This document shows positions 40,404-59,934 of a stretch of DNA of 64,000 nt, in pieces (position 1 is the stretch's first letter; every line of letters starts with the position of its first letter). Location: positions 62,001 through 126,000 of the forward strand of contig JALFTC010000014.1 of assembly GCA_022779485.1 (NCBI GenBank). Direction: 5' to 3'. A program made the position numbers and the translations under genes. This DNA is from Ruminococcus sp. Lineage in GTDB: Bacteria > Bacillota > Clostridia > Oscillospirales > Acutalibacteraceae. Under the pieces are notes generated by a model that had not been told where the DNA came from, searched no databases, and was given only the letters and a program-made list of their open reading frames with translations.

Positions 40404-40765
40404 GAGTGGTGGCTGGGAATTACAGTGTTAGAATTATTTCTTAAGTTGACGACATTAGTGGTTTCATAGGAGCATTTTATTCTTTCAGTTATACTATGCC
40501 GTTGATAAAAAATCAGGCATATTTTGTAATATGCAGGTATAATAAGACAGTTTTTGTCCTGTGATTTTGCACAAAGAAATTTTTAAAAAAGTCTTTTTGA
40601 ATATGCACAAAATGGAAATTTGAGTTTTGAAAAAAATAACGGCATAAATAATTTGTTTCATTATAAAATATGTGATATAATTTTGTAGTTGGAAAAATAT
40701 AATTAAAGGGTTAGGTTATATAATTTGTGCTAAACAAAGCCTAATCAGATTTTTGGAGGTAAAGT

Positions 40766-41599: not shown

Positions 41600-41617
41600 T
41601 TAATCAAACTTCACCAC

Positions 41618-41644
41618 AAAGCTCCCGTAATAGGGAGCTTTTCT
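41618..41644. terminator. Hairpin terminator between convergent genes
   Basis: AAAGCTCCC-GTAATA-GGGAGCTTTT. Confidence 0.7.
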
Positions 41645-41654
41645 TATATGATAG

Positions 41655-42587
41655 TTATTGCAGAAAAATACCAAATAAAAGGGGAATTGTAATAATGCAC
41701 ATCAGCTGACTCACAAGTGCAAGGCTGCCTCCCAGCTTTGGGTCTTTTCCGTATGCCGAGGGGATAATTACCGTGTTAAGTCCCAGTGGCATTGCGTTGG
41801 CACACAAAGCTACACTTACAATATCCTTTGGAGTGTTAAGTAAGTTAAGAATCACCACAATCAAAAGTGGCATAACAAAAATCCTTGCAACTGCAATAAT
41901 ATATACCTTGTAGTTTTTCAGCTGACTTAAAATAGGATAACTGCCGATTACAAAGCCTGTTAATATCATAGCCATAGGGGACATTGCCTTTGATGCTCCG
42001 CCTATGATAGAGGGCAAAAAGTTAAGCTGTTCAGGAATATACCTAACTGCATTTGTAAGCCCCATAACAGCACCTATAAGCAGGGATATGCATATTGGGT
42101 TAAGGAAACTTTTAAAAGAAAAACCGTTATTCCCCTCAGTTGGAATAAGCCAGGCAACTCCCAAGGAAAATGTGTAAAGGTTTAGAGGGAGAATAAACAG
42201 AAGATAGTCAAACAGTAGCTCAGGCGCAACTCCCTCAACGAAAGCAATTCCCAAAAAGGCAAAATTGCATACAGTAAAGGAGTAACGGTATATCCGCTGA
42301 ATGTAGGGGTCTTTGTGGAAAAATCTGCCGAATAATAGCCCCACAATAATGCAAAAAAGCAAAATTACGGAGGAATACAGCATAATATGCCACTTGCTCA
42401 CAAAATTCTCCACAGTGCATTTGTCCATAAAGGTGTTAATAATGGTTGCCGGCATAAGTATATAGTTTAAAAGTCTTGATATTACCGTTGGAGTATTTTC
42501 CGGCAAAAATTTTCCCCTGCACAGGAAAAATCCCATACCCATATATCCAAACAGAATAAGTATTTGATTGATTGTGGTCAAAAGCAT
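41655..42587 (-). CDS. AEC (auxin efflux carrier) family transporter
   Basis: About 10 hydrophobic segments; AEC-like N- and C-termini (ALCANAMPLGLNTVIIPSAYG). Confidence 0.85.
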   Translation of the reverse strand: MLLTTINQILILFGYMGMGFFLCRGKFLPENTPTVISRLLNYILMPATIINTFMDKCTVENFVSKWHIMLYSSVILLFCIIVGLLFGRFFHKDPYIQRIYRYSFTVCNFAFLGIAFVEGVAPELLFDYLLFILPLNLYTFSLGVAWLIPTEGNNGFSFKSFLNPICISLLIGAVMGLTNAVRYIPEQLNFLPSIIGGASKAMSPMAMILTGFVIGSYPILSQLKNYKVYIIAVARIFVMPLLIVVILNLLNTPKDIVSVALCANAMPLGLNTVIIPSAYGKDPKLGGSLALVSQLMCIITIPLLFGIFLQ

Positions 42588-42708
42588 AAAATTCCCCCTA
42601 AGGTATTGTTAGAAAAACAGATAGTATTATTCTTATTTTCTTTTGCGTTTCTTGACCTTGTGTTTGATTAATGATAGAATTATCATATAACATTACAGGA
42701 GAAAAGTT

Positions 42709-44007
42709 TTGGACAGAGTAAAAAATAAATCGGACGAAAATATAAATAAAAATATAAATAAAGAAAAAACACCCATCAGCATAATCAGGGTGACAGTAGG
42801 TGCATCAATAGGTGTTTGCGTTCTTGTACTTCTTTGGCTTTTTGTGTACTACACAGGAATTTTTGATGTATCCCCAAGTGGCTTTGAGGTGAATATGAAG
42901 GGTAGCGGTATGGAGATTGTAAGCTATAACGGTGAAGAAAAAAATCTTACAATTCCCGATACTATTAACGGTCACAAGGTGGTTTATATTGGGGAGAAAG
43001 CCTTTTATAAAAATGATACCGTGGAAAAACTTGTGTTGCCCTCAACCGTAAAAGAGGTTGGCAAACAGGCCTTTGCCGATACAAAATCACTTAAAGAGAT
43101 TGAATTTTCCTCAAAATACACCCAATTTGGTGAGAGTACCTTTGAAAATTCCTCTGTTGTAAAGGCAAAGCTACCTACAAGACTGCAAAAAATCAGCGAT
43201 TGTATGTTCAAAAACTGCAAAAGCGTTACAAGTGTATCTTTCCCTGATGACCTAAAGAGCATAGGTGATGAGGCTTTTTCGGGATGTTCCTCCCTGAAAT
43301 CAATGACCATAGGTGACGAGGTCTTAAAAATCGGAAAGGATGCCTTTGCCAACGAGCAAACAGGCTTTACACTAAACAGTATTATCGGCAGTGAAACGGA
43401 AAACTATGCCAGAGATAACGGAATTGAGTATGTCCCCTGTAACTCCTACTACGAGCCTTACACAAAATATAGTTTACACTACGGTAAAAACAGCCTTAAC
43501 ACACAACAGGTGTCAGAGGGCAGGAGAGGAATCCTGTCTTTCTTCCCAAGTGCAACAGGCTACTACCGAATTACCCTTGAGGGCAAGGGTGTAGGCTTTT
43601 TTGTTACAGACGCAATCAAGGATAACCAAATTTGTCCCTTAATAAAGGGTGACGAAAGCGACTTTATCGGCTATTATCAGCAGGGAAAGGAGTACTTTTT
43701 CCCTGTTCGCTCCGACGGATTTGTAAACTATGAGGTTAATGTTGCAAAAACAGACAAGGGCATTGCCGATATGTACAAAAAAGGAGAAAATCTGCTGAAA
43801 GGTAAGGGGAAGTGCAGTCTTGTGGGAGGTTCTTCCCTGTACAAGAACCACAGCACAAATTCGGAAAATGTGGCGCAGGTTAATTCCGATATTATGCTTA
43901 CAAAGGTGCTTGACTACTATGTAGAAGACAGTAAACACATATGGTATCAAATCAACGCCAATGTGGGCGGAGCAGGCAAGCAGGACCTTTGGTTTAGGAG
44001 TAAATAG
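42709..44007 (+). CDS. Membrane-anchored leucine-rich repeat (LRR_5) protein with SH3-like C-terminus
   Basis: N-terminal TM, LRR_5 units (VVYIGEKAFYKNDTVEKLVLPSTVKEVGKQAF), C-terminal LVGGSSLYKN...IWYQINA. Confidence 0.8.
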   Translation: MDRVKNKSDENINKNINKEKTPISIIRVTVGASIGVCVLVLLWLFVYYTGIFDVSPSGFEVNMKGSGMEIVSYNGEEKNLTIPDTINGHKVVYIGEKAFYKNDTVEKLVLPSTVKEVGKQAFADTKSLKEIEFSSKYTQFGESTFENSSVVKAKLPTRLQKISDCMFKNCKSVTSVSFPDDLKSIGDEAFSGCSSLKSMTIGDEVLKIGKDAFANEQTGFTLNSIIGSETENYARDNGIEYVPCNSYYEPYTKYSLHYGKNSLNTQQVSEGRRGILSFFPSATGYYRITLEGKGVGFFVTDAIKDNQICPLIKGDESDFIGYYQQGKEYFFPVRSDGFVNYEVNVAKTDKGIADMYKKGENLLKGKGKCSLVGGSSLYKNHSTNSENVAQVNSDIMLTKVLDYYVEDSKHIWYQINANVGGAGKQDLWFRSK

Positions 44008-44025
44008 GGTTTTCACCACTACCTC

Positions 44026-44173
44026 CGTCATTCCGAGCTTGTCGAGGAATCCCCTTCCTCTATCACTCATTTTGTTAGAGAAATCATACTTTTATATAAC
44101 CTATTGGTGTCGATTAATGCACTACTGCTTTCCTTTCAGATTCTTCGGTCGTTTCACTCCCCTCAGAATGACA
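44026..44173 (+). repeat. Dispersed repeat family B, copy 3
   Basis: CGTCATTCCGAGCTTGTCGAGGAATCCCCTTCC...AGATTCTTCGGTCG...CTCAGAATGACAG, colinear with copy 1. Confidence 0.85.
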
Positions 44174-44224
44174 GGGAGAGAAGTTTCACCCCCTCAGAAT
44201 GACAGGATGAGTGGCATAAGGCGA

Positions 44225-44273
44225 AAAAAATGGTCTGTCGCAAATCTAAGGATTTAGCGATAGACCATTTTCT
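44225..44273. terminator. Hairpin terminator between convergent genes
   Basis: AAATGGTCTGTCGC...GCGATAGACCATTTT. Confidence 0.65.
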
Positions 44274-44309
44274 CATATTATTTTGTAATTATAATTTTTG
44301 CAAACTTAC

Positions 44310-44891
44310 TCAATTCCTCTTCAGGTCATCCAAGGTCCACTTTGTGCCTGTGTCGTGTTCAATATAGTCAAGGAGCTTGTCGCTGTCGTCAAAATATCTG
44401 TAAAGGTCACTGCATTTTTCCCTTACAAAGCCCTCTCGCATTGAATGCTCCATCATTTCTTCCATACTGTCGTAATATCCGTTGATGTTGTAAACTGCTA
44501 TGGGCTTGTTGTGTCTGCCAAGCTGTTTAAGGGTTACAATCTCAAAAAATTCCTCAAAAGTACCGACACCGCCGGGAACAATGATAAATGCGTCCGCCAT
44601 ATCCTCCATTTTTGCCTTTCTCTCCCGCATTGTATCTGTGGTGAAAAGCTGTGTACATTCTTCAAAAAGTCCCTCAATGCCCTCTTCAACAAAAAATTTC
44701 GGAACAACACCGTAAATTTCTCCGCCGGCTTTCTTCATTCCCCTTGCAGAGGCGCCCATAAGACCCTCTTTTCCTGCACCAAAAACAAGCTGATGATTCC
44801 TTTTGCCCATTTCATAGGCAAATTCCTCAACAGTTTTGATGTAGCTTTCGTTTATTATATTACTGGCTGAGCCAAAAACACAAATTCTCAT
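44310..44891 (-). CDS. LOG-family / TIGR00730 Rossmann-fold protein
   Basis: FGAGKEGLMGA, MRERKAKM, PGGVGTFEEFFE motifs. Confidence 0.92.
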   Translation of the reverse strand: MRICVFGSASNIINESYIKTVEEFAYEMGKRNHQLVFGAGKEGLMGASARGMKKAGGEIYGVVPKFFVEEGIEGLFEECTQLFTTDTMRERKAKMEDMADAFIIVPGGVGTFEEFFEIVTLKQLGRHNKPIAVYNINGYYDSMEEMMEHSMREGFVREKCSDLYRYFDDSDKLLDYIEHDTGTKWTLDDLKRN

Positions 44892-45031
44892 ATTAATACC
44901 TCTTTTTATATATCTTTTTTCTGAATATATTATATATTATATTTTAACTTTTATCAATAAATAACCGTGTTGTAAATGAGATTTTATAGTAGTATAATTT
45001 ATTTACAGTCTTTTTAATAAGGTGAAAGGTT

Positions 45032-45634
45032 ATGTCATACATTTGTTTAATAGGAAATGAATACGGTATTGTTGCCTCCTCGGATTCAAGAGAAACAATG
45101 GGTGAGGGAAAATATTTTGACAACCGACAAAAGGTATTTTGCGACAAAAAGCAAGGACTTATTTGGGCTTGTTGCGGAATTACCAAGCATTTGGGCAAGG
45201 ATTATCTTCGTCTTGTGGAATTTATTATGAGGGACAGCAAAACGACCTTTGACCAAAAGCTTGATTACCTTGAAAAGAGTATTTGCAAGGTTACTTTGGA
45301 GGCTGTTGAAACCTTGGGCAGAAAAAGTGCTATGGATATTCTTGTGGGCAAGGTGGATAAACGCACAATGATGATAAGAATGAACTTTGCTATGGGCAAT
45401 ATGGACAGAAAGGTGTTTTTCTCCCCCTTAGCATTGGAGGGAGGGTGCGGAAAATTTCTGTGTCCTAAGATGAAACTAAGTGAATACAAAGGTCTTTTAG
45501 TGCCCGACCTAAAGAAATATGCTCATAATCGTGTTGAAAGCGTAATATATAAAGATAGAGAATTGTCAGCAAATTGCCCTACAAGAGAAAATTCCATTGG
45601 CGGAAGAGTGCTTTGTGAGTGTATAAAAAGGTAA
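45032..45634 (+). CDS. Hypothetical protein with possible proteasome/HslV-like (Ntn-hydrolase) fold
   Basis: ORF; N-terminal CLIGNEYGIVASSDSRETMGE...DNRQKVF resembles beta-subunit N-terminal pattern. Confidence 0.5.
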   Translation: MSYICLIGNEYGIVASSDSRETMGEGKYFDNRQKVFCDKKQGLIWACCGITKHLGKDYLRLVEFIMRDSKTTFDQKLDYLEKSICKVTLEAVETLGRKSAMDILVGKVDKRTMMIRMNFAMGNMDRKVFFSPLALEGGCGKFLCPKMKLSEYKGLLVPDLKKYAHNRVESVIYKDRELSANCPTRENSIGGRVLCECIKR

Positions 45635-45827
45635 ATTTAGGTAATTTAATCCCGTATTAAAGAATTGTTAATAATTTGTTCATAAAAATTTATGCTTTTT
45701 TAATAGTTTTTTCAAAATAAAGTTATGTAAATTGAGAATAGTTTATTCTTCGGCAATTTGTTATAATCAATTATGGTTAGTCTGATAGATTGAGAATAGA
45801 TTATTTTTAGAAAGAGGGTTCTTATTT

Positions 45828-48800
45828 ATGAGAAAAATATGTAAACCGTTATCAATGCTGTTGGCGCTTGTTTTGCTTGCAACAACTGCAACATTCTCAG
45901 TTCTTTCTGCAACAAATGATTACAATTCGAGTGGGGCTGATATTGAAGTGGAAGCGACATCTGCATACACAAATTCCGGCGAAAGCTACAACACATACAG
46001 CGGAAACGACCTTGGTGCGGTTTATTCCAAGGACTCCACAACATTTAAGGTTTGGGCTCCGTCTGCTACAAAGGTACAGTTAAAGCTGTACAACACAGGT
46101 TCCGACAGCGAAAGCGGAGCCGGTGTAATCGGTACATACGATATGTCCAAGGACAGTACAAACGGTGTTTGGTCAATTACTAAGAGCGGTGACCTTAACG
46201 GTAAGTATTACACCTATCTTGTCACCGTTAACGGTACAACAAAGGAAACTCGTGATGTATATGCCAATGCTGCCGGTGTAAACGGTAGGCGTTCAATGGT
46301 TATTGACCTTAGCAGTACCAATCCTGACGGCTGGTCAAACGACAGGCATATTCTCTTTGACAATGCACCGGAGGCTGCAGTTTGGGAGGTTTCTGTAAGG
46401 GACTTTTCCATTGACAGTACATCAGGTGTGGACGCTGACAAGCGTGGTAAATATATGGCATTTACACAGCACGGAACAACCCTCAACGGTGCCGGTGTTC
46501 TCAAGACAGGTATAGATTACCTTATTGAAAACAATATTAACTGTGTTCAGATTATGCCAATGTATGACTTTGGCTCTGTTGACGAAACAAAGGGCGGACA
46601 AAACTGGGGATATGACCCAATGAACTACAATGTTCCCGAGGGTTCATTCTCCTCAAACCCATATGACGGTGCTGTTAGAATCAAAGAGCTTAAATCTATG
46701 ATTAAGGCACTTCACGATGCAGGAATTTCCGTAATTATGGATGTTGTTTACAACCATACCTACAACACAAGCGACTCTGCATTTGAAAACACTGTTCCCG
46801 GCTACTATTACAGAATGAACGGAAGTACATTCCTTAACGGCTCAGGCTGCGGAAATGTTACAGCATCTGACAAAACAATGTACAGAAAGTATATGATTGA
46901 TTCTGTAAAATACTGGGCAAACGAGTACCATATTGACGGTTTCCGTTTTGACCTTATGGGTTGTCACGACTATACAACAATGAACAAAATCCGTACAGAG
47001 CTTGACAAGATTGACAAGCGAATCATTATGTACGGTGAGCCTTGGATGGCTGACTGGGGCTCAAACGGTATTGCAAATTCCTCTGCTGCTGTTATGGATA
47101 ATGCAAGCAAGCTAAATCCAAGAGTAGGATGCTTTAACGATAAGATGAGAAATGCCCTGAAGGGTGGCACAAGCGACAAATCATCAGGCTTTATTCAGGG
47201 TTCAACCTCAAGCACAGCAGATGTTAAAGCCGGTTGTATGGCTCATACATCATCACTTCTTGGTAAGTGGTCACAAGCTCCAAGCCAGACAGTAACCTAC
47301 AACTCCTGTCACGATAACCTTACCCTTTGGGATAAGATTTTGTATTCACAGGGAAGCACAGATTACAACGGCTCCAACGGAACATTCCTTGCAATGAACA
47401 AACTTTCTGCGGCTCTTGTTCTCACTTCACAGGGAGTTGCCTTTACACAGGCAGGTGAAGAATTTGCAAGAACCAAAAGAGGTGACGAGAACTCCTACAA
47501 CACAGGTGACGCTGTAAACAAAATTGACTGGACACGAATTTCACAGTATTCAAGCCTTAGGGAATACTACAAGGGTCTTAGATTAATCAGACAGGTTTAC
47601 AGTCCGTTTACAGACGGAACAAACACATCTGTCGGACAGTCATACTTTACAGGCTCAAACTCCGTAATTGCATACACAATGCAAAACAAAACTGCAAACG
47701 CCGCTAACGAGTGGGGAACAGTTGCTGTTATTGCAAACAACAGCGCCTCTACTCAGTCTGTAACACTAAAGGCAAGTACAACACTTCCAACCTCTTGGGC
47801 AACAATAGTTAACGGTTCAAGTGCAGGTCTTAAGAACTTGGGTACTGTAACAGGCACAACCATCTCTGTTCCGGGAAGAACAGCAATGGTGCTTGTTGAC
47901 TTGGCGTCCTTTAACGAAAAGAATATTCAGGGACCATCTACAACTGTTCCAACTACTTCTACACCGGCTAACGGAACTGTTACTTGGAATACAACAAAAA
48001 TCAAGGGCTTTGCTGACGGCGTAGCATACGAGGATTTGGCAGGTTCAACATCAAGAATTACAAAGACAGTTGTTCCTGAGGACGGATACGAGATTGCATA
48101 TGTAAAGATTGTTACAGGCGGTGCAGATGTCACATCAACTGCATACAATTCTGCAACAGGTACAATCGACTTTACCCGCAACGGCAACGCAGAGATTACA
48201 TTAATTGCAACAAAAATTCCATCAACTCACCTTTACGGAGATGCTAACGAGGACGGACTAATCAATGTTAGAGATGTAACAACTATCCAAAAGTATATTT
48301 GCAATCCTAACGACTCCTTAAGTGATGTTGGAAAGAAAGCGGCAAATGTTAACGGTGACGAGGGAATAGATGTTCAGGACGCAACTGTTCTGCAAAAGTA
48401 TGTTTCAAAGTACATCACTTCACTCCCTGTTGGCGGCTCTTTCTCTGATGAAAAACCAACATTTACAATTCCTACAGAAACAACAACTTCTACAACAGCT
48501 ACCGTACCTACAAGCACACAAACATCACCCACAAATCCTTCCGGTTCAATTACAGTCAACTTTGTATCAAATGTTGACAATGGTAAAGAAAGATGGGCTG
48601 CATACTGTTGGACAGACACAAACAATATGTGGTTTGATGTAGTTAACGGACAGGTTACTGTTCCAAGCAGTATGGAGAATATTATCTTTGTAAGATTTGA
48701 CGGCACCTCCACAGAGAATAAGTGGGATGAAGAGGGTGCAACAGTTAAATATGTTTGGAATCAAACTGACGACTTATTCCTCGGCTCGGGTTCAACCTAC

Positions 48801-48857
48801 ACAGTTACCGGCTGGGGCGACGGCTGGGGAGCACCCCTTGAAGGTTCTTGGTCATAA
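45828..48857 (+). CDS. Secreted type I pullulanase (GH13) with dockerin and C-terminal putative carbohydrate-binding module
   Basis: Signal peptide; QNWGYDPMNYNVPEGSFS, DVVYNHTY, GFRFDLMGCHD, GEPWM; two Ca-binding dockerin repeats; Thr-rich linker; C-terminal beta-rich module. Confidence 0.92.
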   Translation: MRKICKPLSMLLALVLLATTATFSVLSATNDYNSSGADIEVEATSAYTNSGESYNTYSGNDLGAVYSKDSTTFKVWAPSATKVQLKLYNTGSDSESGAGVIGTYDMSKDSTNGVWSITKSGDLNGKYYTYLVTVNGTTKETRDVYANAAGVNGRRSMVIDLSSTNPDGWSNDRHILFDNAPEAAVWEVSVRDFSIDSTSGVDADKRGKYMAFTQHGTTLNGAGVLKTGIDYLIENNINCVQIMPMYDFGSVDETKGGQNWGYDPMNYNVPEGSFSSNPYDGAVRIKELKSMIKALHDAGISVIMDVVYNHTYNTSDSAFENTVPGYYYRMNGSTFLNGSGCGNVTASDKTMYRKYMIDSVKYWANEYHIDGFRFDLMGCHDYTTMNKIRTELDKIDKRIIMYGEPWMADWGSNGIANSSAAVMDNASKLNPRVGCFNDKMRNALKGGTSDKSSGFIQGSTSSTADVKAGCMAHTSSLLGKWSQAPSQTVTYNSCHDNLTLWDKILYSQGSTDYNGSNGTFLAMNKLSAALVLTSQGVAFTQAGEEFARTKRGDENSYNTGDAVNKIDWTRISQYSSLREYYKGLRLIRQVYSPFTDGTNTSVGQSYFTGSNSVIAYTMQNKTANAANEWGTVAVIANNSASTQSVTLKASTTLPTSWATIVNGSSAGLKNLGTVTGTTISVPGRTAMVLVDLASFNEKNIQGPSTTVPTTSTPANGTVTWNTTKIKGFADGVAYEDLAGSTSRITKTVVPEDGYEIAYVKIVTGGADVTSTAYNSATGTIDFTRNGNAEITLIATKIPSTHLYGDANEDGLINVRDVTTIQKYICNPNDSLSDVGKKAANVNGDEGIDVQDATVLQKYVSKYITSLPVGGSFSDEKPTFTIPTETTTSTTATVPTSTQTSPTNPSGSITVNFVSNVDNGKERWAAYCWTDTNNMWFDVVNGQVTVPSSMENIIFVRFDGTSTENKWDEEGATVKYVWNQTDDLFLGSGSTYTVTGWGDGWGAPLEGSWS
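48231..48437 (+). other. Dockerin domain coding region within the pullulanase
   Basis: GDANEDGLINVRDVTTIQKYI and VNGDEGIDVQDATVLQKYV repeats. Confidence 0.88.
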
Positions 48858-48902
48858 CAGGCTGATTTCGCAGAAAATTGAAATAGAAAAATAATAAAAT
48901 TT

Positions 48903-48932
48903 GGGCGTACCCATATGGGTGCGTCCTTTTTT
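48903..48932 (+). terminator. Terminator after pullulanase
   Basis: GGGCGTACCC-AT-ATGGGTGCGTCC hairpin with TTTTTT tail. Confidence 0.7.
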
Positions 48933-49265
48933 GCATATAGTTTTCTCTGCAATTCCGAGGATACCCTCTCATTCTGCCATTTCCGGCTTGTCGAGGACTA
49001 CCTCGCCTATATTTCCACCACATTTTTTTGTATAAGTTTTATAAAAATAACCATTTTACTTGTGAAGTATTTATTTTCGTTGCAAATATGAACAAAATAT
49101 TAACAAAATATTAACATAAAGTTTGGCTATGATTACCATTTATTTCTATTTGTACTTATGATAGACTTAATTACAATGTTTTATTTATATACTATTAACA
49201 ATTTAATAGTACATATTTAATATAAGAACATATAACAAAACAAAATTTTAGGAAGGAGAACAATT

Positions 49266-52200
49266 TTGAAAAAAGGTAAGTTGACAAAATTAATGGCAAG
49301 GACATCAACTGCTGTTATTTTGGCATTTATGACTGCTATATCCAGCATTTCTGTTATTGCTGTAAATACAGAAAATGCGGATACCGGCGCTAATTCAGAC
49401 TTAGTAGAATCCGGTGCACAACTTCCACAGGATTGTGATTACCATCTTATAGGTGATTTCAACAACTGGGCAAAGAGTGACCCCGACTGGAAACTGACAA
49501 GCAATGACGGCAACTGCTATACCGGCACTTTTACGCTTACCGGTTCCGAAACTAATTACCAGTTCAAGGTTTATAACAGTGACGGTAACGACTACTCTGC
49601 CAATGGTTATTACTTTAAGGATAGCGCTACTGTGGCAACAGCACTTAGCACTTCAAACAAAAATAATGACCAAATCCAGTGTATTGCTACCTCAGGTTCA
49701 ATTACCCTTAATGTAAAGCTCTACTGTGAGTACAGCGGTGACAGCCGTCTTGAAATCACACAGAGAATATCAGGAAACGGTGGGGTTGCTGAAATTACCA
49801 AGGGAAACACCGCAGATTCCGAAGTGCACAATGCAAATATTGGCATTGAAAACCAAACAAGCGGTACTGAGATTATTTCTGTAAACGGTTCGTTCTATGA
49901 CTACTATATGGACGAGGAAATAAGGAATAACGGACGCTGGCGCAGTAGTCTGACAGGCTATTACAGGTCTGTTGAAAACGGCAACGAGGCTGCCGCCCGT
50001 GAGCCTTTTGAATGCTTTAACAAGGCTTTGGGTGCGTATAGCTTACAGAACAGTAACTGGAAATATCCTCTTTATTTCGGTGACTTTAACGGTCAGTCAA
50101 ACGGTTACATAGGCAGAGGTGACAGCTCTCTTCAAAAATTTAAGATTAGACCAAACAACTCAATGGCAACATTATCCACAGTCAACGGCTCTGTTTCTGC
50201 TCTTGTTGACACCACCCTTAACAGTGACGGTATGCTTACTGCAAACGGAGTTACTCTCCCTTACTTTGATGCGGACTGGCTTACAAAAAACGGATACGGC
50301 ACAGTCATTAACTCGCCTTTCCCAATGAGGAAGTCCCAGACTGCAAAGGGCAACGACTACTTTGAGTTTGACAGTAACAACGGTAAGGATAACTGCTACT
50401 TTAGCGGTTACTCCACAAACCAGTACACAATGAACTATGCCTACAACAAAAACAAGGTTAAGGACGCACTAAGCGGATTTTCAAGTGACGGTGACGGATA
50501 CGGATTTTTCCCATTTGACCGTTCAACCGAGCATAGCGGAAATGCCTATGACTTTGGCTTTGGTATGCGACTTGACATTGACTTTACCCTTGGTGAAAAC
50601 GGCACAATCGGCAGTGGCGCAAATAAAGAGAATACACAGTTCACCTTCTCCGGTGACGACGACCTTTGGGTATATCTTGACGGAGTACTTGTCCTTGATA
50701 TGGGCGGTGACCACAAAAAGTCCAATGGATTAATTGACTTTGCCAAAAGGAAGTCATATGTAAACAAAATAGACACTTCCTACAAGGAAGATAAAGAAAA
50801 CGCTTTGAATTATGTTGAAGACACAATTGTTTCAGGCTACGAATATTCAGCAGAGTTCCCACAGCTTTTTGCAAACAATGCAAACACAACAAGCACCTAT
50901 GCTTTGGGTACTTCAAAATTTGACAATAAGAACCCTAATGTAAAGCATACTCTTACAGTTTTCTATATGGAAAGAGGTATGATTGAGTCAAACCTTAGTG
51001 TTGGCTTTAACTTTGTTCCTGCAAAGGACTCCCTAAAGGTAACTAAAACCGTTGACGCATCGAAAGTTAACCCTCTCCTTGCTGACAAGGTTGAGAATTT
51101 AGATTCCTTTGGCTATGCAGTAAAGAACGCACCTGCTTTGGACGGTGTTCCTACAGATATTTCAAACAAAAACTATACCTTCAACGACAGCACAGACGAA
51201 CACAGCTACTATGCTGTTACAGACGGTAAGTCATTCTCCTTGGCAAACGGCGACAGTGCTGTTTTCAGCGAACAGTTTGTTCCCGGTTCGTATATTCAGG
51301 TTACCGAGAATGACTCTCCAAAGGATACAATTGTTACATTAAACCAAGACAGACTGCTTTTCTTTGACCCGTCAGGATGTACATGGTTCGGTGACAGCGG
51401 TGCTGTTCCTGCAATAGCACAGAATTATGACGGTAAAACACCTTCTAATTACAGTTTGATGTCATCCTATAAGGTTGACGGAAAAACATATTACTACTAC
51501 CCAATTTCCGACACCACAACTACATTTACCATAGCAAGAAAAACTGCAACCGGCATATACAACAGGTTTAAGTTTTATGTGGCTGATGATAACGGAAAAC
51601 TAACAAGTAACTATATTACAGCCGGCAGTGTGTGGAACGGAGATACCGAGGGACAAAATACCTGCCCGGAGTATTCTTCCTCTGACACAAAGGGCACTAC
51701 ATACACAAAGTTTACTAACACCTACCCGGACACAACACAAAGTGTGATTAAGACAAGCAACAGAAGTAAAATTGCTTACAGTCCTTCTTGGAGTCTTTAC
51801 GACATTTCAAAGGACTCCGAAGCAACCACTGACAATCCTATATTTTCAGGCGTTAGCGAAACTGCATCTTTCCAATATTTCAACTCGGCTAAGGACAAAA
51901 TGCTTTCTACACATATGCTGTTGTCATATGTAAACACAGTACTTACAAAAAATATTACCGTTAAAAAAACAGTTGTTGATAAGGATAATAATAATCTTTC
52001 CGATGACGATACAGAATTTACTGTAAAGCTACTTGTTGACCTTGATAACGACGGTACATACGAGGACTACGGATTAACAGGAACAATCAGTCAAAATAAT
52101 CCTTATGTATTCAGGGGTATTCCACAGGGTGTTGACTATCAGATTGTTGAGGAAGATTCATACGGATACACCAACTTAACGGATGTAATTGAAGGAACTC

Positions 52201-53261
52201 TCAGCAAAGAAAGTGCCCAACACACCTTTACAAACCTTAAGAAACCGGCAGAGTACACTCCTGTTGTGACAAAGACTCTTGACGGTGAAAACTACTATGG
52301 TGAAAAATTCACATTCACCTTAGAGGGTATGGGGTCAATAAAACTTGGCGATGGTGAAACACGGGACACATCGAGAATGGCTGTTGATAAGAAAACAAAG
52401 ATTCCGTCAGAAACTCCCGGCAAGGTTAGATTTACAAGTATTTCATATTACAACGAGGGTACTTACCTTTACAAAATCACAGAGGGAAGCGTAAACGACA
52501 CTGACTATCAGACTGACAGTGATACAATTATCCTAAAGGTTGTAGTAAGCCGAAATAACGACAATACCCTTAGCGTAACGCCAACCTATTACAAGGGAAA
52601 TCTTAACGATTACATTGATGATTCAGAGAACAGCGACTCTGTCACATTTGACTATGAATCATTTATGGTTGATGGCAACGCAACCGATACTCCAACCTTT
52701 AAAAATGTTTCCACCAAGGGTGAAATTACTGTTCTAAAGGTTGACAAAATTAACAATGACGGTAAAGTTCCTGATGATGCTATAAGGCTCAAAGGTGCTA
52801 AATTTAGCCTTTACAAGGTTACCGGTAATAATGTTACACCCGGTACTAATGACAACCCAATTCAAACATTGGCAACCGATGAAAACGGCGAAATTACATT
52901 TAGCGATTTGGATATTTTTGCTGAAAACGGCAACGGTATCAGTGGTGCTAAAAATTATCAGTGGTACTATGTTGTAGAAACAGCTGCCGCTGAGGGTTAT
53001 ACACTGTCAACAAATCAGGAGTGGTTCTGTTTTAACGGTGCAACCTATGACGATACAAATAATATTTACACACATTCGTTTGCAGCATTAAATGTACTAA
53101 TCGCAGTTCCAAGTACCGGTATTGATTACTTAATGCAACACAACTTCCTGTTGTATGGTGGTTTAGTTCTTGGCGTAGGCACAGTTCTTGCCTGTGCATA
53201 TATGTTGAGAAAGAAAAAAACAAGAGCAAAAGCTCCTGTAGGTAAACATGGTATAAAATAA
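49266..53261 (+). CDS. Large pilus-type adhesin: N-terminal starch-binding-like module, fibro-slime/PA14-like domain, pilin isopeptide-linkage and SpaA-like domains, VPSTG sorting signal
   Basis: YHLIGDFNNWAKSDPDWKL...YQFKVYN; TFSGDDDLWVYLDGVLVLDMGGDH; PVVTKTLDGENYYGEKFTFTLEG; VPSTGIDYLMQHNFLLYGGLVLGVGTVLACAYMLRKKKTRAK. Confidence 0.85.
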   Translation: MKKGKLTKLMARTSTAVILAFMTAISSISVIAVNTENADTGANSDLVESGAQLPQDCDYHLIGDFNNWAKSDPDWKLTSNDGNCYTGTFTLTGSETNYQFKVYNSDGNDYSANGYYFKDSATVATALSTSNKNNDQIQCIATSGSITLNVKLYCEYSGDSRLEITQRISGNGGVAEITKGNTADSEVHNANIGIENQTSGTEIISVNGSFYDYYMDEEIRNNGRWRSSLTGYYRSVENGNEAAAREPFECFNKALGAYSLQNSNWKYPLYFGDFNGQSNGYIGRGDSSLQKFKIRPNNSMATLSTVNGSVSALVDTTLNSDGMLTANGVTLPYFDADWLTKNGYGTVINSPFPMRKSQTAKGNDYFEFDSNNGKDNCYFSGYSTNQYTMNYAYNKNKVKDALSGFSSDGDGYGFFPFDRSTEHSGNAYDFGFGMRLDIDFTLGENGTIGSGANKENTQFTFSGDDDLWVYLDGVLVLDMGGDHKKSNGLIDFAKRKSYVNKIDTSYKEDKENALNYVEDTIVSGYEYSAEFPQLFANNANTTSTYALGTSKFDNKNPNVKHTLTVFYMERGMIESNLSVGFNFVPAKDSLKVTKTVDASKVNPLLADKVENLDSFGYAVKNAPALDGVPTDISNKNYTFNDSTDEHSYYAVTDGKSFSLANGDSAVFSEQFVPGSYIQVTENDSPKDTIVTLNQDRLLFFDPSGCTWFGDSGAVPAIAQNYDGKTPSNYSLMSSYKVDGKTYYYYPISDTTTTFTIARKTATGIYNRFKFYVADDNGKLTSNYITAGSVWNGDTEGQNTCPEYSSSDTKGTTYTKFTNTYPDTTQSVIKTSNRSKIAYSPSWSLYDISKDSEATTDNPIFSGVSETASFQYFNSAKDKMLSTHMLLSYVNTVLTKNITVKKTVVDKDNNNLSDDDTEFTVKLLVDLDNDGTYEDYGLTGTISQNNPYVFRGIPQGVDYQIVEEDSYGYTNLTDVIEGTLSKESAQHTFTNLKKPAEYTPVVTKTLDGENYYGEKFTFTLEGMGSIKLGDGETRDTSRMAVDKKTKIPSETPGKVRFTSISYYNEGTYLYKITEGSVNDTDYQTDSDTIILKVVVSRNNDNTLSVTPTYYKGNLNDYIDDSENSDSVTFDYESFMVDGNATDTPTFKNVSTKGEITVLKVDKINNDGKVPDDAIRLKGAKFSLYKVTGNNVTPGTNDNPIQTLATDENGEITFSDLDIFAENGNGISGAKNYQWYYVVETAAAEGYTLSTNQEWFCFNGATYDDTNNIYTHSFAALNVLIAVPSTGIDYLMQHNFLLYGGLVLGVGTVLACAYMLRKKKTRAKAPVGKHGIK

Positions 53262-53276
53262 ATTACATATATTTTA

Positions 53277-54833
53277 TTGAAAAAGGAGAAAATGAAAATG
53301 ACAAATTCAATTAAGAAAATTTTTGCAATTCTTTTAGTAGTTGCAACAATGGCACTTATGATTCCTTTCGGAGCCAGTGCAACAAGGAACGCCTCAACTG
53401 ATGTAACATTTAAGCTAAGCGATAGTTCTGTTGTAGGTAAGTTTAGGTTTGATATTTACAAAATTGCCGGTGTTAATACAACAACAGGTGCAGTTACACC
53501 TGCTACCGGTATTCCGACAGAGGTTGCTAATGCGATTAAGGCAGAAGGTACTGACGCTAACACACAGACTCTTATCTCTAAATGTAAGACTAATCTAAGC
53601 TCTTTAGGCTCACCTGTTAAGCAATGGGATGCCACAACAGATACTATTACATATAGCAGTGAAAGCGGTAATGGACAACTATCAGCAGGTATCTACTACA
53701 TTCACCCGGTAGCAAAGAGTACTGCTACAAAGGCTAACGACTCTATTGTTGTTCTTCCTAATTATAACGGAAGAGAGTGGGTTGCAGTTGGCGAAGTTGA
53801 CCTGGCTTCTAAGGTTAGCACAAAGGACATCGTTCTTGACAAGACAATCACAAAGGTTGACAACACAGATGTAAACGCAAAATATGCAACAGCAGGTGTA
53901 GGTAGCACAGTTGAATTTAAGCTTGAAGCTAATGTCCCCGGTTCTGCAGACGCTATGCTAAAGAAATATGCTATTGTCGACAAGATGGACGCAGGTCTTA
54001 CATTCGATAAGGACTCTGTAAAGGTTTACTACACAGCTGGTACACTTTCCGAAAACACCCTTGTTAGTGCTGATAAATATACAGTAGATGTTCCTTTCGC
54101 AACTAGTGATAATAATACATACACATTTGCTGTAAACTTCAAAGCTGATACAGCAGACGGTTATGTAAAGAACATTTATGATGCAACTAAGAAAATGGTA
54201 GTTGTATTTAATGCCACAGTTAACAAGAATGCTACAGTAGGTAAAACTTCTAACGACAACCAGGTTTGTCTTGATTATGCTAATGACGATGCTAAGGCAG
54301 TTGAGCAGGGTCCTACTGTTCAGGTGTTTGCTTTCAACATTCAGGTAGTTAAGACAAACAGCAACGGCACAGCTAACCTTTCCGGTGCAGAATTTGAATT
54401 ATACAAGGCTGACAAATTGACAAAGATTGCAACAGCTACATCAGACGGAAACGGTCTTGTGAAGTTTACGAATGCGAATGCAAACACACAGATTCAGCTT
54501 GCTAATGGTACATACTATGTGAAAGAAACAGTTGCTCCGGAAGGATATGTTCTGCCAACAGGTGATGCTGCTTGGACAGAAATCGTTATCGATCCAACAA
54601 TTTCTAAAAAAGCAAATGCCGGTGCAAATGAGGCTAAGTATGAGCTGACTGCTCTTGCAAACAGTACTGATAACGATTTAGCAGTTGTTACAAGGAATAT
54701 CAAAAACATTAAACTGACTGTTCCGGAGACAGGCGGTATGGGTACAGCAATCTTCACAATTTGCGGTGCATCTCTAATCGCACTTGCAGGTGTAATGTTT
54801 GTTATTCTTAAGAAAAAGAAAGCTAATAAATAA
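53277..54833 (+). CDS. Isopeptide-forming fimbrial/pilin subunit with VPETG sorting signal
   Basis: Signal peptide; D2-type fimbrial domain; SpaA-like LSGAEFELYKADKLTKIA...YVKETVAPEGYVLP; VPETGGMGTAIFTICGASLIALAGVMFVILKKKKANK. Confidence 0.9.
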   Translation: MKKEKMKMTNSIKKIFAILLVVATMALMIPFGASATRNASTDVTFKLSDSSVVGKFRFDIYKIAGVNTTTGAVTPATGIPTEVANAIKAEGTDANTQTLISKCKTNLSSLGSPVKQWDATTDTITYSSESGNGQLSAGIYYIHPVAKSTATKANDSIVVLPNYNGREWVAVGEVDLASKVSTKDIVLDKTITKVDNTDVNAKYATAGVGSTVEFKLEANVPGSADAMLKKYAIVDKMDAGLTFDKDSVKVYYTAGTLSENTLVSADKYTVDVPFATSDNNTYTFAVNFKADTADGYVKNIYDATKKMVVVFNATVNKNATVGKTSNDNQVCLDYANDDAKAVEQGPTVQVFAFNIQVVKTNSNGTANLSGAEFELYKADKLTKIATATSDGNGLVKFTNANANTQIQLANGTYYVKETVAPEGYVLPTGDAAWTEIVIDPTISKKANAGANEAKYELTALANSTDNDLAVVTRNIKNIKLTVPETGGMGTAIFTICGASLIALAGVMFVILKKKKANK

Positions 54834-54859
54834 TTTTGACATACGCAAATAACCTTTAT

Positions 54860-55024
54860 TAAGGAAACACTGAATAAATCACTTTACACATCTTGTACGC
54901 ATATTTTCTGCCGGTATGCCCAAAAAATCCTCGCAATACGTCAGTATTCCTGCGTTTTTTTGAACATACCGACAAAAAATCTGACTGTACAATCTGTGCA
55001 AATGATTTAATCAGTGTTTCCTTA
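54860..55024. repeat. 165-bp palindromic element, full copy 3 (opposite orientation to copies 1 and 2)
   Basis: TAAGGAAACACTGAATAAATCACTTTACACATC...GATTTAATCAGTGTTTCCTTA. Confidence 0.92.
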
Positions 55025-55137
55025 ACTTTATTTATCTATTTGGGGTGCAGGAAACTGCATCCCATATTTTTGTTGCAATTATTACTGGTGTATTTTATAA
55101 TTGTATTAGTATAAGAGTGAGAATAAGGACAATATTT

Positions 55138-56040
55138 ATGAAAAAGAAACTCCCGATAATCGCAATAATATTAATTTTTGTAATTGGTCTTGGAATAATG
55201 AGCTATCCTCTTGTTAGCTCAATGATTAACAATTCAAAGTTTCGTGAAGGTATGAATGACTATACCCAAGTAGTTAAAAAAATGAAGAAAGAGGACTATT
55301 CCAATTTTTTTAATGATGCAAAGAAATATAACAAAAGCCTTACGGCAACATCAATCATCACCGACCCTTTTGATGAGAAGGCATACAAGGCTATTGGCGC
55401 AAGATATAATAATGTGCTTAATGTTGACGAAAAAGGTCTTATTGGCTATGTTGTAGTGCCAAGAATTGATGTTAATTTACCCATATATCATGGTTCAAGC
55501 AAAAAAGTACTTGAAAACGGTGCAGGCCACTTGCGGAATACTTCAATGCCTATTGGTGGCAAAAGTACCCATGCGGTTATATCTGCTCATACAGGATTTC
55601 CTGACCAAACTTTTTTTGATAACTTAACTGACCTTGTAAAGGGAGATATTTTTTACATAAAGGTTTTGGACAAGACTCTTGCTTATAAGGTTGACCAAAT
55701 CAAGGTTGTTCTGCCGGAAGAAACCGAGAATTTGCGTATTATTCCTTACGAGGACTATGTAACGCTATTAACCTGTACTCCTTACGGTGTCAACACCCAC
55801 AGATTGCTTGTAAGAGGTGTTAGGACCAAATATATACCGGAAGAACAAGCGAAAGCTAAAGAGGTAAAACAAGCTCCCTTTGAAAAGTGCTTCTATTTCT
55901 TAGGATGCAAAATTCCATATTGGGTTGCCGGTTTATTTATAGTTGGGTTTGTCCTTGTGGTTATAATTATTGTAATTGTAATAGTCAGAAAGAATAACAA
56001 AAGAGCCAAAACAAAGAAGGTACAGACTGATGAAAAGTAA
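55138..56040 (+). CDS. Class C-type pilin sortase
   Basis: MKKKLPIIAIILIF start (ORF track begins at 55045 inside upstream sequence); HTGFPDQTFFDNL catalytic His, TLLTCTPYGVNTHRLLVRGVR, C-terminal TM. Confidence 0.92.
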   Translation: MKKKLPIIAIILIFVIGLGIMSYPLVSSMINNSKFREGMNDYTQVVKKMKKEDYSNFFNDAKKYNKSLTATSIITDPFDEKAYKAIGARYNNVLNVDEKGLIGYVVVPRIDVNLPIYHGSSKKVLENGAGHLRNTSMPIGGKSTHAVISAHTGFPDQTFFDNLTDLVKGDIFYIKVLDKTLAYKVDQIKVVLPEETENLRIIPYEDYVTLLTCTPYGVNTHRLLVRGVRTKYIPEEQAKAKEVKQAPFEKCFYFLGCKIPYWVAGLFIVGFVLVVIIIVIVIVRKNNKRAKTKKVQTDEK

Positions 56041-56809
56041 AAAAGCTCGCAGGGTTATGGTGATAATTGCCACATTCTTTCTTGTAACAGGAATCGGCTT
56101 ATTGTTGTTTCCGCAGGTTTCAAATACTTATGGAAAATATGTAGCGAGGAATATTTCTGATGATTTTGAAACAAGGGCAGAACACCCACGAAAAGGCTCC
56201 TATTCTGATGCAAAAAAGAACGGAGAGGTAGATGGTAACGGTTGCCTTGCTGACGGTACACAGGTAGTGTATGATGTTGATATTAAAAGATTAAAGGAAG
56301 ACAGTATTAAGTATAACAATATGCTAAAAAAACATCAGTGGGAAAAGCTGACTAACTCCCTTTCTTATGAACAGCCAAGCCTAAAATTAAGCGAGTATGG
56401 AATTTTTGACGGTGTGTATGGATATTTGGAAGCTCCCACAATCGGTATGAAGTTGCCTATATATTTAGGCACTGCAAGAAATCACCTGAGCTACGGTGCA
56501 GCTCATTTAACATATACTTCTCTGCCTATAGGCGGTCAGGACACCAATGCGGTACTTGCCGGTCATACCGGTTATGTTGGCAGAATATTTTTTGATGATA
56601 TCAGAAATTTGCAAATCAATGACAAAATTAATGTAAGAACCTATTGGTCAAAAATGACTTATAAGGTTGTAAGTACAAAGGTAATAAAGCCAAATGAAGC
56701 AAGCGATATATATATTCAGAAAGGTAAGGACATGATTATCCTTATGACTTGTATATCTAACGGTAATGGTGGATTTGACAGATATTTGGTGTTTTGCGAA
56801 AGGAAGTAA
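56030..56809 (+). CDS. Second sortase (divergent)
   Basis: AGHTGYVGRIFFDDI catalytic His, ILMTCISNGNGGFDRYLVFCERK catalytic Cys/Arg; overlaps the preceding sortase gene. Confidence 0.88.
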   Translation: MKSKKARRVMVIIATFFLVTGIGLLLFPQVSNTYGKYVARNISDDFETRAEHPRKGSYSDAKKNGEVDGNGCLADGTQVVYDVDIKRLKEDSIKYNNMLKKHQWEKLTNSLSYEQPSLKLSEYGIFDGVYGYLEAPTIGMKLPIYLGTARNHLSYGAAHLTYTSLPIGGQDTNAVLAGHTGYVGRIFFDDIRNLQINDKINVRTYWSKMTYKVVSTKVIKPNEASDIYIQKGKDMIILMTCISNGNGGFDRYLVFCERK

Positions 56810-56811
56810 TT

Positions 56812-57189
56812 ATGGATAAGAATCTTAACAAACTGCAAAGGGAAGAGGCAGGAAAAAGGCTGAAAATTTTGGGATACCCAAAGGATGTTTGCGAGAAATA
56901 TAACGACAAATCTTTTCTGCTAAAACTTCAAGAGGCAGACAGCGGAGATGTCCCCGAAGATATTAATATTGCACCGTTCCTAAAAATGGAAGAGGACGAA
57001 AACATATTCACATACCTGTACAGATATTCTGTAACAGAAGAGGGAAAATTGCAGTTAAGACTGTTTTTCGTCACCGATAAGGTAGAAGAATGGGAAAAGG
57101 ACAGAGAAACCTTGCGTAGTGCAATGGAAAAGGGAATAGATACGAAAGATGCAAAATCAATATTCCGTACATTTGTCCGTCCAATGTGA
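56812..57189 (+). CDS. Hypothetical protein, last gene of the pilus cluster
   Basis: ORF with ATG (MDKNLNKLQREE) at 56812, immediately after the second sortase stop; no family recognised. Confidence 0.65.
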   Translation: MDKNLNKLQREEAGKRLKILGYPKDVCEKYNDKSFLLKLQEADSGDVPEDINIAPFLKMEEDENIFTYLYRYSVTEEGKLQLRLFFVTDKVEEWEKDRETLRSAMEKGIDTKDAKSIFRTFVRPM

Positions 57190-57331
57190 TGTTTTCCCTG
57201 ATATTACCCGCAATAAAAACGGTAAAACAAATAAATACACAAAATAATATATTTTTATGTAATTATTTTTCAAAAAGCTATTGACAATTTACCATAACTT
57301 ATTATATAATAATCAGGCACGAAAATAAGAA

Positions 57332-57408
57332 CGAGGTGTAACTCAGTTTGGTAGAGTGCTTGGTTTGGGACCAAGATGCCGCAGGTTCGAGTCCTGTCAC
57401 CTCGACCA
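57332..57408 (+). tRNA. tRNA-Pro (anticodon TGG)
   Basis: CGAGGTGTAACTCAG... anticodon stem CTTGG-TTTGGGA-CCAAG, T arm GGTTCGAGTCC, encoded CCA, 77 nt. Confidence 0.96.
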
Positions 57409-57410
57409 TT

Positions 57411-57442
57411 AAAACAGGTAATGCCATGGTATTACCTGTTTT
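57411..57442. terminator. Hairpin after tRNA-Pro(TGG); possible terminator or processing site
   Basis: AAAACAGGTAAT-GCCATGGT-ATTACCTGTTTT. Confidence 0.6.
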
Positions 57443-57458
57443 GATTTTAAATAAGCAA

Positions 57459-57535
57459 CGAGGTGTGGCTCAGTTTGGTAGAGCGCTGCGTTCGGGACGC
57501 AGAGGCCGCAGGTTCGACTCCTGTCACCTCGACCA
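57459..57535 (+). tRNA. tRNA-Pro (anticodon CGG)
   Basis: CGAGGTGTGGCTCAG... anticodon stem CTGCG-TTCGGGA-CGCAG, T arm GGTTCGACTCC, encoded CCA, 77 nt. Confidence 0.96.
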
Positions 57536-57537
57536 TT

Positions 57538-57569
57538 AAAACAGGTAATGCATTGGCATTACCTGTTTT
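57538..57569. terminator. Hairpin after tRNA-Pro(CGG)
   Basis: AAAACAGGTAATGC-ATTG-GCATTACCTGTTTT, near-duplicate of the hairpin at 57411. Confidence 0.6.
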
Positions 57570-57586
57570 AATTTTTAAACAAGCAA

Positions 57587-57605
57587 CGAGGTGACAGGAG
57601 TCGAA
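57587..57605 (-). repeat. Inverted 19-nt fragment of tRNA-Pro(CGG) T-arm/acceptor 3' strand
   Basis: CGAGGTGACAGGAGTCGAA is the exact reverse complement of TTCGACTCCTGTCACCTCG in the tRNA at 57459..57535. Confidence 0.9.
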
Positions 57606-57727
57606 GGTGACGAGTACGACCGCCGCCGGTGGCGGAGGAAGGGAGTACGAGGAAGAGCCGCAACAAGGAGTTTGAGGAAGTGCATTTATGCACGACGCTA
57701 AACGACTATGTTGCAATCGGAGTAAAG

Positions 57728-57751
57728 AAAACAGTCCGGTGGACTGTTTTT
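57728..57751. terminator. Hairpin ending the GC-rich segment
   Basis: AAAACAGTCC-GGT-GGACTGTTTTT. Confidence 0.6.
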
Positions 57752-58037
57752 AGGGAGGGTGTAGAAGATACTATTGTAGGAAATAGTGTTTCTTCTTTGT
57801 ATATAATATATCGTCTATTCTATAAATTAATTGCAAAACATTTACTAAAATGATATGATATTTTTAGGAAATTAACTGTATAGGAATAGGAGGGGGTTAT
57901 ATCCTTTCAATGTCAGTAACAGATGAAAGAAATTCTGACTTAGCGGGTACATTTCATATTACTTCAACATGGAAAAAGTCAGAAAATACATACAAGCTTA
58001 TTTTTAATATGGATTCAAGAATTATGTGAGGTGCAAA

Positions 58038-58292
58038 ATGGATAAAATATGTCAAAGTTGCGGTATGCCTATTCCATCTAATGAACAATTAGGCACAGAA
58101 AAGGATGGAAAAATAAATAACGACTACTGTAAATACTGCTACGAAAAAGGTGAATTTATTGACAAGGTGACAATGGAAGAATACATAGAAATGTGTTCAC
58201 AATACGGTTCACAGGCAGGAATGACAAATGAAGAAATGAAAGAGCATTGTGAAAAGCTTTTCCCTACATTAAAAAGGTGGAAAGCTGAATGA
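58038..58292 (+). CDS. Putative zinc-ribbon protein
   Basis: MDKICQSCGMPIPSNEQLGTEKDGKINNDYCKYCYEKGEFI; CxxC...CxxC. Confidence 0.82.
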   Translation: MDKICQSCGMPIPSNEQLGTEKDGKINNDYCKYCYEKGEFIDKVTMEEYIEMCSQYGSQAGMTNEEMKEHCEKLFPTLKRWKAE

Positions 58293-58336
58293 TTAGTATT
58301 GGCAAATAATGATTTGTACTTATGGTGGTGTGTGTA

Positions 58337-59911
58337 ATGAATGAAGAATCTAACCAGGGGTTGACCCTGCTGAAAAAAGGGCAGAAAGGACTGTTTCATC
58401 TGATTTTCAGCCGATTGGGACTGATTTTGCTGATGTTGGCAGTTCAGATTTTTGTTATGTTCGGTGTATTCTATTGGTTTGCAGAGTTTCTCCCTCATAT
58501 CTATGGCGGAATGATACTATTTATGGCGGTTATGGTGCTGTATCTCATTAACAGTCGTATGGATGCATCGGCAAAACTTACCTGGATGATGGTTATTATG
58601 CTGTTGCCCGTATTCGGTGCGTTGCTGTTTTGGTACACTCAAAGGGACTTGGGGAATCGCACCCTGAAAAAGCGTATGAATTGGCTGATTGACCATACAA
58701 GAAAGAGTATTCCCCAATCCCATAAGCTGATGGAAAAGCTGGACAAGGAGGCTCCTGAGGTTTCAGCACTTACCCGATATTTGGGGCGTAGCGGGTGCTA
58801 TCCTGTCTATGAAACCACCGATGTGACATATTTCCCATTGGGGGAAAAGATGTGGGAAGAGATGCTTAAGCAACTGGAACAGGCGGAGCATTTTATATTT
58901 TTGGAATACTTTATTGTAGATGAAGGGCTGATGTGGGGAAAACTATTGGAGATTTTGGCTCGGAAAGCCAAGCAGGGAGTTGAGGTTCGTGTAATGTACG
59001 ACGGCACCTGTGAGTTTTCAACACTGCCACACGATTATCCAAAGCGGTTGAAGGAACTGGGTATAAAGTGCAAAATGTTTTCACCTGTGACTCCCTTTCT
59101 CTCTACCCATTATAATTATAGGGATCACAGAAAAATTATGGTGATTGACGGACACACCGCCTTTACAGGCGGGGTGAATCTGGCAGATGAATACATAAAT
59201 CATAACAGCAAATACGGCCATTGGAAGGATGTAGGTGTTATGCTTAAGGGAGATGCTGTAAAAAGCTTTACCTTGATGTCATTGCAGAGCTGGAACATTG
59301 ATGAAAAACATCCTGAGTTCCAAAAATATTTGGATTATCCAACTTTTGCACCTAACAATACTTCAGGATATGTTATTCCCTATGGTGACTGCCCTTTGGA
59401 TAAGGACAAGGTGGGTGAGCGTATCTATATGGATATTTTGAATAGGGCACAGAAGTATGTGCATATTATGACGCCCTATCTGATAATGGATAACGAAATG
59501 GAAACAGCACTGAAATTCGCTTCCGAGCGTGGAGTGGAAGTTTCTCTTATTCTGCCGGGAGTGACTGACAGTGCAGCCGCCCATGGCTTGGCATGGACAC
59601 ACTATGCCTCATTGCTGGAGTCAGGAGTGAAAATATACGAATACACACCGGGATTTGTTCACGCAAAGGTGTTTGTCAGCGATGATAAGGAGGCGGTTGT
59701 TGGCACAATCAATATGGATTACAGGAGCCTTTATCATCACTTTGAGTGTGCCACCTATTTGCATAAAACCGACTGTATAACGGATATTGAACAGGATTAT
59801 AGAGAAACTCTTTCAAAGTGCGTTGAGATAACACCCCGCTCACAAAGAAAGGTAAAATTCAGCCGAAAGGTGATAGGAGTTCTCCTAAAAGTTTTTGCAC
59901 CTTTGATGTAA
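58337..59911 (+). CDS. cls: Cardiolipin synthase
   Basis: Two PLD HKD motifs (HYNYRDHRKIMVIDG; FVHAKVFVSDDKEAVVGTINMDYRS), N-terminal TMs. Confidence 0.94.
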   Translation: MNEESNQGLTLLKKGQKGLFHLIFSRLGLILLMLAVQIFVMFGVFYWFAEFLPHIYGGMILFMAVMVLYLINSRMDASAKLTWMMVIMLLPVFGALLFWYTQRDLGNRTLKKRMNWLIDHTRKSIPQSHKLMEKLDKEAPEVSALTRYLGRSGCYPVYETTDVTYFPLGEKMWEEMLKQLEQAEHFIFLEYFIVDEGLMWGKLLEILARKAKQGVEVRVMYDGTCEFSTLPHDYPKRLKELGIKCKMFSPVTPFLSTHYNYRDHRKIMVIDGHTAFTGGVNLADEYINHNSKYGHWKDVGVMLKGDAVKSFTLMSLQSWNIDEKHPEFQKYLDYPTFAPNNTSGYVIPYGDCPLDKDKVGERIYMDILNRAQKYVHIMTPYLIMDNEMETALKFASERGVEVSLILPGVTDSAAAHGLAWTHYASLLESGVKIYEYTPGFVHAKVFVSDDKEAVVGTINMDYRSLYHHFECATYLHKTDCITDIEQDYRETLSKCVEITPRSQRKVKFSRKVIGVLLKVFAPLM

Positions 59912-59934
59912 ATGATTTAATCAGTGTTTCCCTA
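59910..59934. repeat. Solo terminal arm of the 165-bp palindromic element (left-arm type)
   Basis: AAATGATTTAATCAGTGTTTCCCTA, matching the left-arm end of the full copies (reverse complement); overlaps the cls stop codon. Confidence 0.8.

Follow-up and report, generated by a model that had tools for sequence, protein, structure and literature searches.

Positions 49266–57189 of the window, meaning the whole 64 000-nucleotide stretch of DNA that was analysed, hold a pilus locus comprising a wall-anchored adhesin, a backbone pilin of the SpaH/EbpB type and two class-C-type sortases, with a dockerin-bearing type I pullulanase upstream. All of these genes lie on the + strand. The adhesin (49266–53261) is a tip-type protein of 1331 aa with a signal peptide, a CBM48/X25/SusE-like module (residues approx. 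56–166; 49431–49763), a fibro-slime/PA14-like core (residues approx. 205–590; 49878–51035), an isopeptide stalk (51036–53105) and a VPSTG sorting signal with transmembrane segment and basic tail (53106–53261). The backbone pilin follows (53277–54833) and ends in a VPETGG sorting signal; its start is more likely the ATG at 53292 or 53298, placed after an AAGGAG site, than the TTG at 53277. Sortase 1 (55138–56040), which carries a DPF lid-like motif, starts at ATG 55138 rather than at the listed GTG 55045, since the latter sits within a terminator-like hairpin, and sortase 2 occupies 56030–56809. These calls confirm the layout given in the original prediction, namely two secreted proteins with LPxTG-like signals followed by two sortases.

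Directly 3′ of sortase 2 is a gene for a small conserved protein of 131 aa with no assigned family (56794–57189), which is kept in four species (the window and relatives L009, L060 and L063). A palindromic, MITE-like repeat of 163 bp lies between the pilin and sortase 1 (54861–55023, + strand); it is present at about 41 distinct genomic places with 77–100% identity, and is not found at the corresponding spot in L009. No homopolymer tracts of 7–8 or more bases, which might act as an expression switch, were found at the locus. The host genome is a 2.02-Mb draft, 94.8% complete, with 19 dockerin, three cohesin and 22 CBM26 matches. This content, together with the nearest solved relatives of the pullulanase (Ruminococcus bromii Amy10 and Amy12), suggests that the host is an R. 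bromii-like starch specialist.

Pilus machinery and exchange of the shaft

The backbone pilin scores 118.5 bits against NF033902 (cut-off 95), and its profile matches pilin relatives among solved structures down to E = 8e-49. Across 20 aligned backbones of the genus, the triad K189–D235–N328, the pair K359/E417 and K179 are all invariant; K179 (20/20) lies directly ahead of the second domain, at a position comparable to that of the pilin-motif lysine in SpaA, in a YPK sequence that is non-canonical for the pilin motif. The adhesin stalk had been predicted to consist of pilin isopeptide domains, and this is supported by serial Lys–Glu–Asn triads kept across 20 homologues: all residues of K901–E962–N990 and K1003–E1073–N1147 are present in 20/20 adhesins, as is the pair K1158/E1238, while K594, E681 and N890 are found in 17/20, 19/20 and 20/20, respectively. 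Against solved structures, the stalk profile matches Spy0128-type pilins and one GAS ancillary protein 1. For the two proposed pilus sortases, the class C assignment is firm for sortase 1 (NF033745, 281.5 bits against a cut-off of 160), while sortase 2 (153.9 bits) falls slightly short of that cut-off and is better called class-C-like.

On this evidence, the locus very likely builds a sortase pilus. No base pilin was found within the cluster, so the pilus would be a two-component one, and the genome encodes six sortases, of which one of the remaining four may anchor the fibre. The adhesin carries its own sorting signal, and similar tails are seen in other pilus-linked adhesins of the genus; in Actinomyces oris, it is the sorting signal of the tip pilin that decides tip placement (PMC11389406). 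We predict that the adhesin probably sits at the pilus tip. Adhesin sorting signals in the genus are often non-canonical (PNASG, PDASG, PSTAG), and the backbones nearly always keep PxTGGxGT.

In the sister species (L009/G048, 80% identical), DNA identity with the window is approximately 90–95% over 40487–52714 and approximately 90% over 56279–59915. The intervening, sharply bounded block (52714–56279) is divergent: it takes in the last adhesin domain together with the sorting signal, the backbone pilin (protein identity 38%), sortase 1 (57%) and the start of sortase 2. Over this same block the more distant L060 matches the window at 72–77% DNA identity. With flanks of about 90% identity, a divergent block and L060 the nearer sequence within it, the shaft unit has been replaced in L009 while the adhesin head was retained. 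The best reading is that the last adhesin domain, sorting signal, backbone and sortases travel together as a matching shaft unit, an exchange that would fit if sorting signal, backbone and sortase have to suit one another in function and the head is under selection of its own.

The exchange also bears on whether a pilus is made at all. The adhesin could be anchored to the wall on its own, with the cluster being a remnant, as the transposon-like repeat and the terminator-like hairpin that separate the pilin from its sortase might indicate. However, every gene is intact, the key residues are all conserved and the shaft block has been exchanged as a unit, and we regard a remnant as highly improbable.

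An exchangeable adhesin head

The original prediction saw a module resembling the CBM48/SusE type in the N-terminal segment YHLIGDFNNW...YQFKVYNSDG. Taken alone, this segment matches Pfam CBM_48 with E = 0.013, below the cut-off. A leave-out profile, from which the sequences of the window, L009, L060 and L083 were withheld, scored the window module at 32.1 bits, whereas none of the 2000 shuffles that served as the null exceeded 10.5 bits. The profile of the module family reaches the solved structures of SusF (6e-7), SusE (1.5e-5) and the glycogen-binding domain of AMPK β1 (8e-4), and family members match Pfam AMPK1_CBM, X25_BaPul and SusF_SusE at 1e-5 to 1e-6. The predicted resemblance is borne out by these scores, which argue for true homology rather than a chance motif and, by profile, place the module in the CBM48/AMPK/X25/SusE–SusF group of α-glucan modules. 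AlphaFold predictions for the module and for the module with the core, using the window and L009 sequences only, gave unusable models (pLDDT 45.5 and 27); the module was predicted as all-β, which at this pLDDT from two sequences is not trustworthy. Neither CBM26 (Pfam PF16738) nor a dockerin or cohesin was found in the window adhesin.

Within the aligned module family, Trp68 (of FNNW) is invariant and Lys101 nearly so. They align with the glycogen-contacting Trp100 and with Lys126 of AMPK, respectively. Of the two sugar-contacting AMPK tryptophans, only the first is kept; the position of Trp133 is occupied by Asp109–Tyr110 in the window and by Tyr–Tyr in L009 and L060. X25 modules of R. bromii bind maltooligosaccharides, and those of its protein Sas20 showed no binding on their own when isolated (PMC9112005). 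We consider it reasonably likely that the head of the window adhesin binds α-glucan. A non-binding, Ig-like spacer that has kept the fold and lost the site, with the core doing the binding, would agree with the missing second aromatic position and with the behaviour of the isolated Sas20 modules. Such a spacer is nonetheless distinctly unlikely in our estimate, given the conservation of Trp68 and Lys101 and the repeated replacement of the module by CBM26 described below, which suggests selection for binding.

Numerous secreted proteins of the genus contain an FNNW-type module (71/150 genomes, E ≤ 0.01), and some of these proteins also carry CBM26 and dockerins. One such protein, encoded in L056 (6235–11406, − strand), is a leucine-rich-repeat protein of 1723 aa with a single FNNW module, many short CxxC motif repeats and a C-terminal dockerin.

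Matches to the adhesin were found in 53/118 relatives, nearly all of the same genus, and a scan of the genome collection yielded a single close relative, the Oscillospiraceae MAG SUG1572. The cassette of adhesin, pilin and two sortases recurs at many genomic places in the genus. Within the adhesin, it is the core that is conserved genus-wide, and this core is rare elsewhere in the class (11 of about 290, weak matches); viral contigs gave only two distant, uninformative fibro-slime matches. The predicted fibro-slime/PA14-like character of this core stands in part: the window adhesin scores 44.0 bits against TIGR02148, just under the curated cut-off of 45, and Pfam PA14 is matched by 5/20 homologues, the window adhesin not being among them at 1e-3. 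Large fibro-slime proteins lacking a sorting signal were also seen in five relatives (L045, L049, L066, L073 and L076), each with a gene 3′ of it for a leucine-rich-repeat protein of about 300 aa with a C-terminal dockerin; these pairs appear to form a second, amylosome-linked type.

The region before the core varies among orthologues. CBM26 is present in 10/20 aligned orthologous adhesins (E ≤ 1e-3); among those tested, six have it in the N-terminal slot with a score that passes the Pfam cut-off. The CBM48/X25/SusE-like module is found in the adhesins of the window, L009, L060, L043, L044 and L049, and there are internal insertions of CBM26 or FNNW modules, for example in L075, L062 and L067. 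A third conserved head type (IYIDMRSFTGW...FRVFTF...), shared by five adhesins (L061, L063, L064, L065 and L067), has no Pfam or PDB match; it is distantly like the first domain of a multi-CBM26 protein in L057. An N-terminal module is missing from at least 10 of the adhesins read, most of them members of a single clade. A tree of the adhesin core, in which some deep branches are long and of uncertain placement, implies at least eight changes of slot content; L063, with the third head type, groups with the CBM26-bearing L040 with 96% support. The adhesin head in this R. bromii-like genus is best read as a slot in which starch-type binding modules are exchanged.

The presence of bona fide CBM26 modules in the same slot of orthologues strengthens the starch reading, although CBM26-type modules are common in the secreted proteins of the genus and their presence in adhesins is therefore partly background. 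Since at least 10 adhesins have no N-terminal module, starch binding cannot be the sole use of these pili. The gut sortase pili described so far mostly recognise host ligands, and the pilus could likewise bind the host or a neighbour, its core and head attaching to mucin, epithelial or bacterial-surface glycans, with the module seeing another glycan or being auxiliary. The orthologues without a module and the unmatched third head type are in keeping with this alternative. We think it unlikely, however, because the recognised modules of the adhesin family are overwhelmingly of α-glucan type (CBM26 and CBM48/X25/SusE-like) and the genus is rich in dockerins and CBM26.

The neighbouring pullulanase

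The secreted pullulanase (45828–48857) scores 641 bits against TIGR02104 (cut-off 504), with CBM_48 and Dockerin_1 above their Pfam cut-offs and a CBM26-like stretch at the C-terminus; its domain order is that of Amy12. It is separated from the adhesin by a 409-bp gap holding a strong, intrinsic-terminator-like hairpin with a 10-bp stem (48903–48926, + strand). The two are adjacent in three species, one of which has only 51% adhesin identity. In G022 and G049, the full-length pullulanase orthologue keeps its upstream neighbours in a conserved block of its own, with no pilus downstream, and the G022 pilus has the same outer neighbours as that of the window (a gene for a 277-aa zinc-ribbon-type protein and the 131-aa gene), the pullulanase being absent there. 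Across the genus, the majority of pilus loci lack a pullulanase at their side. Because of the terminator and gap, and of the separate pullulanase and pilus locations in these relatives, the pairing is a lineage-specific rearrangement and not a conserved operon.

Dockerin genes as a class are somewhat enriched near pilus loci, the raw count of 18 comparing with 5.8 to 10.2 expected and, after syntenic sets were collapsed, 14 with 5.3; the effect is modest and sensitive to the choice of expectation. Dockerin genes lie directly upstream of the pilus in L041 and L043 (one each) and L042 (two), and some of these carry CBM26 or FNNW-module arrays. Such enrichment, together with the gene order shared by three species, speaks for a single starch-utilisation operon in which pullulanase and pilus are co-regulated and act as one unit. 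This seems very unlikely to us given the terminator and gap, the separate block in G022 and G049 and the absence of the neighbour beside the pilus in most species, and the pullulanase is not supported as an operon partner. The interpretation put forward earlier thus keeps its sortase pilus with a tip-type adhesin and a module of the α-glucan group, and loses both the pullulanase as partner and its adjacency as an argument.

Predicted role and relation to known systems

We favour, with some caution, a two-subunit sortase pilus that tethers the cell to starch granules through the adhesin head. The sortase would join the adhesin first and the shaft of backbone pilin would polymerise behind it; the outermost module of the adhesin would then hold α-glucan, tethering the cell to a granule at a distance, and the separate dockerin/cohesin enzyme system of the organism would digest the tethered starch. 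A role in holding starch granules is a somewhat favoured prediction, and pilus genes are known to be induced on starch in two bifidobacteria (PMC11286577). More broadly, there is perhaps an even chance that sortase pili here are substrate-adhesion organelles whose plug-in head slot has repeatedly gained, lost or changed starch-type modules (CBM26, X25/SusE-like and a third, unclassified type), with the shaft unit exchanged independently between species.

Granule capture by keystone degraders of resistant starch has so far been explained by cell-surface amylosomes and starch-adherence proteins. If the proposed role is correct, a starch-binding pilus head would add long-range, covalent attachment to this picture, and sortase pili of the gut, for which host binding is the usual view, would in some cases serve to hold on to food particles. 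Each part of this can be tested with recombinant domains and isolates of the genus. None of the building blocks is new in itself: sortase pili, X25/SusE and CBM26 modules, fibro-slime adhesins and the amylosome have been described before. Neither a pilus adhesin with starch-type modules nor starch-binding sortase pili were found in the open-access literature searched, and the combination is potentially undescribed.

Close architectural parallels are the two-component class C sortase pili, such as BcpA/BcpB of Bacillus cereus and the SpaA type. The window locus shares with them a backbone with isopeptide domains and a putative pilin-motif lysine, a large subunit of tip type that bears a sorting signal of its own, and a dedicated class C sortase. 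The head differs, in that it joins a fibro-slime/PA14-like core to a CBM48/X25/SusE-like module, and so does the gene set, in which a second sortase is present and a separate base pilin is missing.

Other systems share some of its features. Sortase pilus genes are also linked to growth on starch in Bifidobacterium adolescentis and B. pseudocatenulatum, although that link is one of expression only and a starch-binding module in the pilin is not reported there (PMC11286577). Pili occur in Pseudoruminococcus massiliensis, a starch-degrading relative of R. bromii, but these are type IV pili and unrelated, and the report on them makes no mention of a sortase (PMC8726730). The fibro-slime proteins of Fibrobacter succinogenes are, like the window adhesin as predicted here, surface proteins with a fibro-slime-type domain that serve to hold an insoluble polysaccharide, but the polysaccharide is cellulose and they belong to the outer membrane of a Gram-negative bacterium without sortase involvement (PMC4668043). 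The R. bromii amylosome, with Sas20 and Sca5, likewise displays X25/SusE-type and CBM26 modules on the cell surface for starch, and its dockerin pullulanases Amy10 and Amy12 are similar to the enzyme encoded beside the pilus. Sas20 and Sca5 are, however, held by dockerin–cohesin pairing or by a single wall anchor (PMC9112005, PMC5814915), whereas the window adhesin, free of both dockerin and cohesin, is encoded together with a pilin and pilus sortases.
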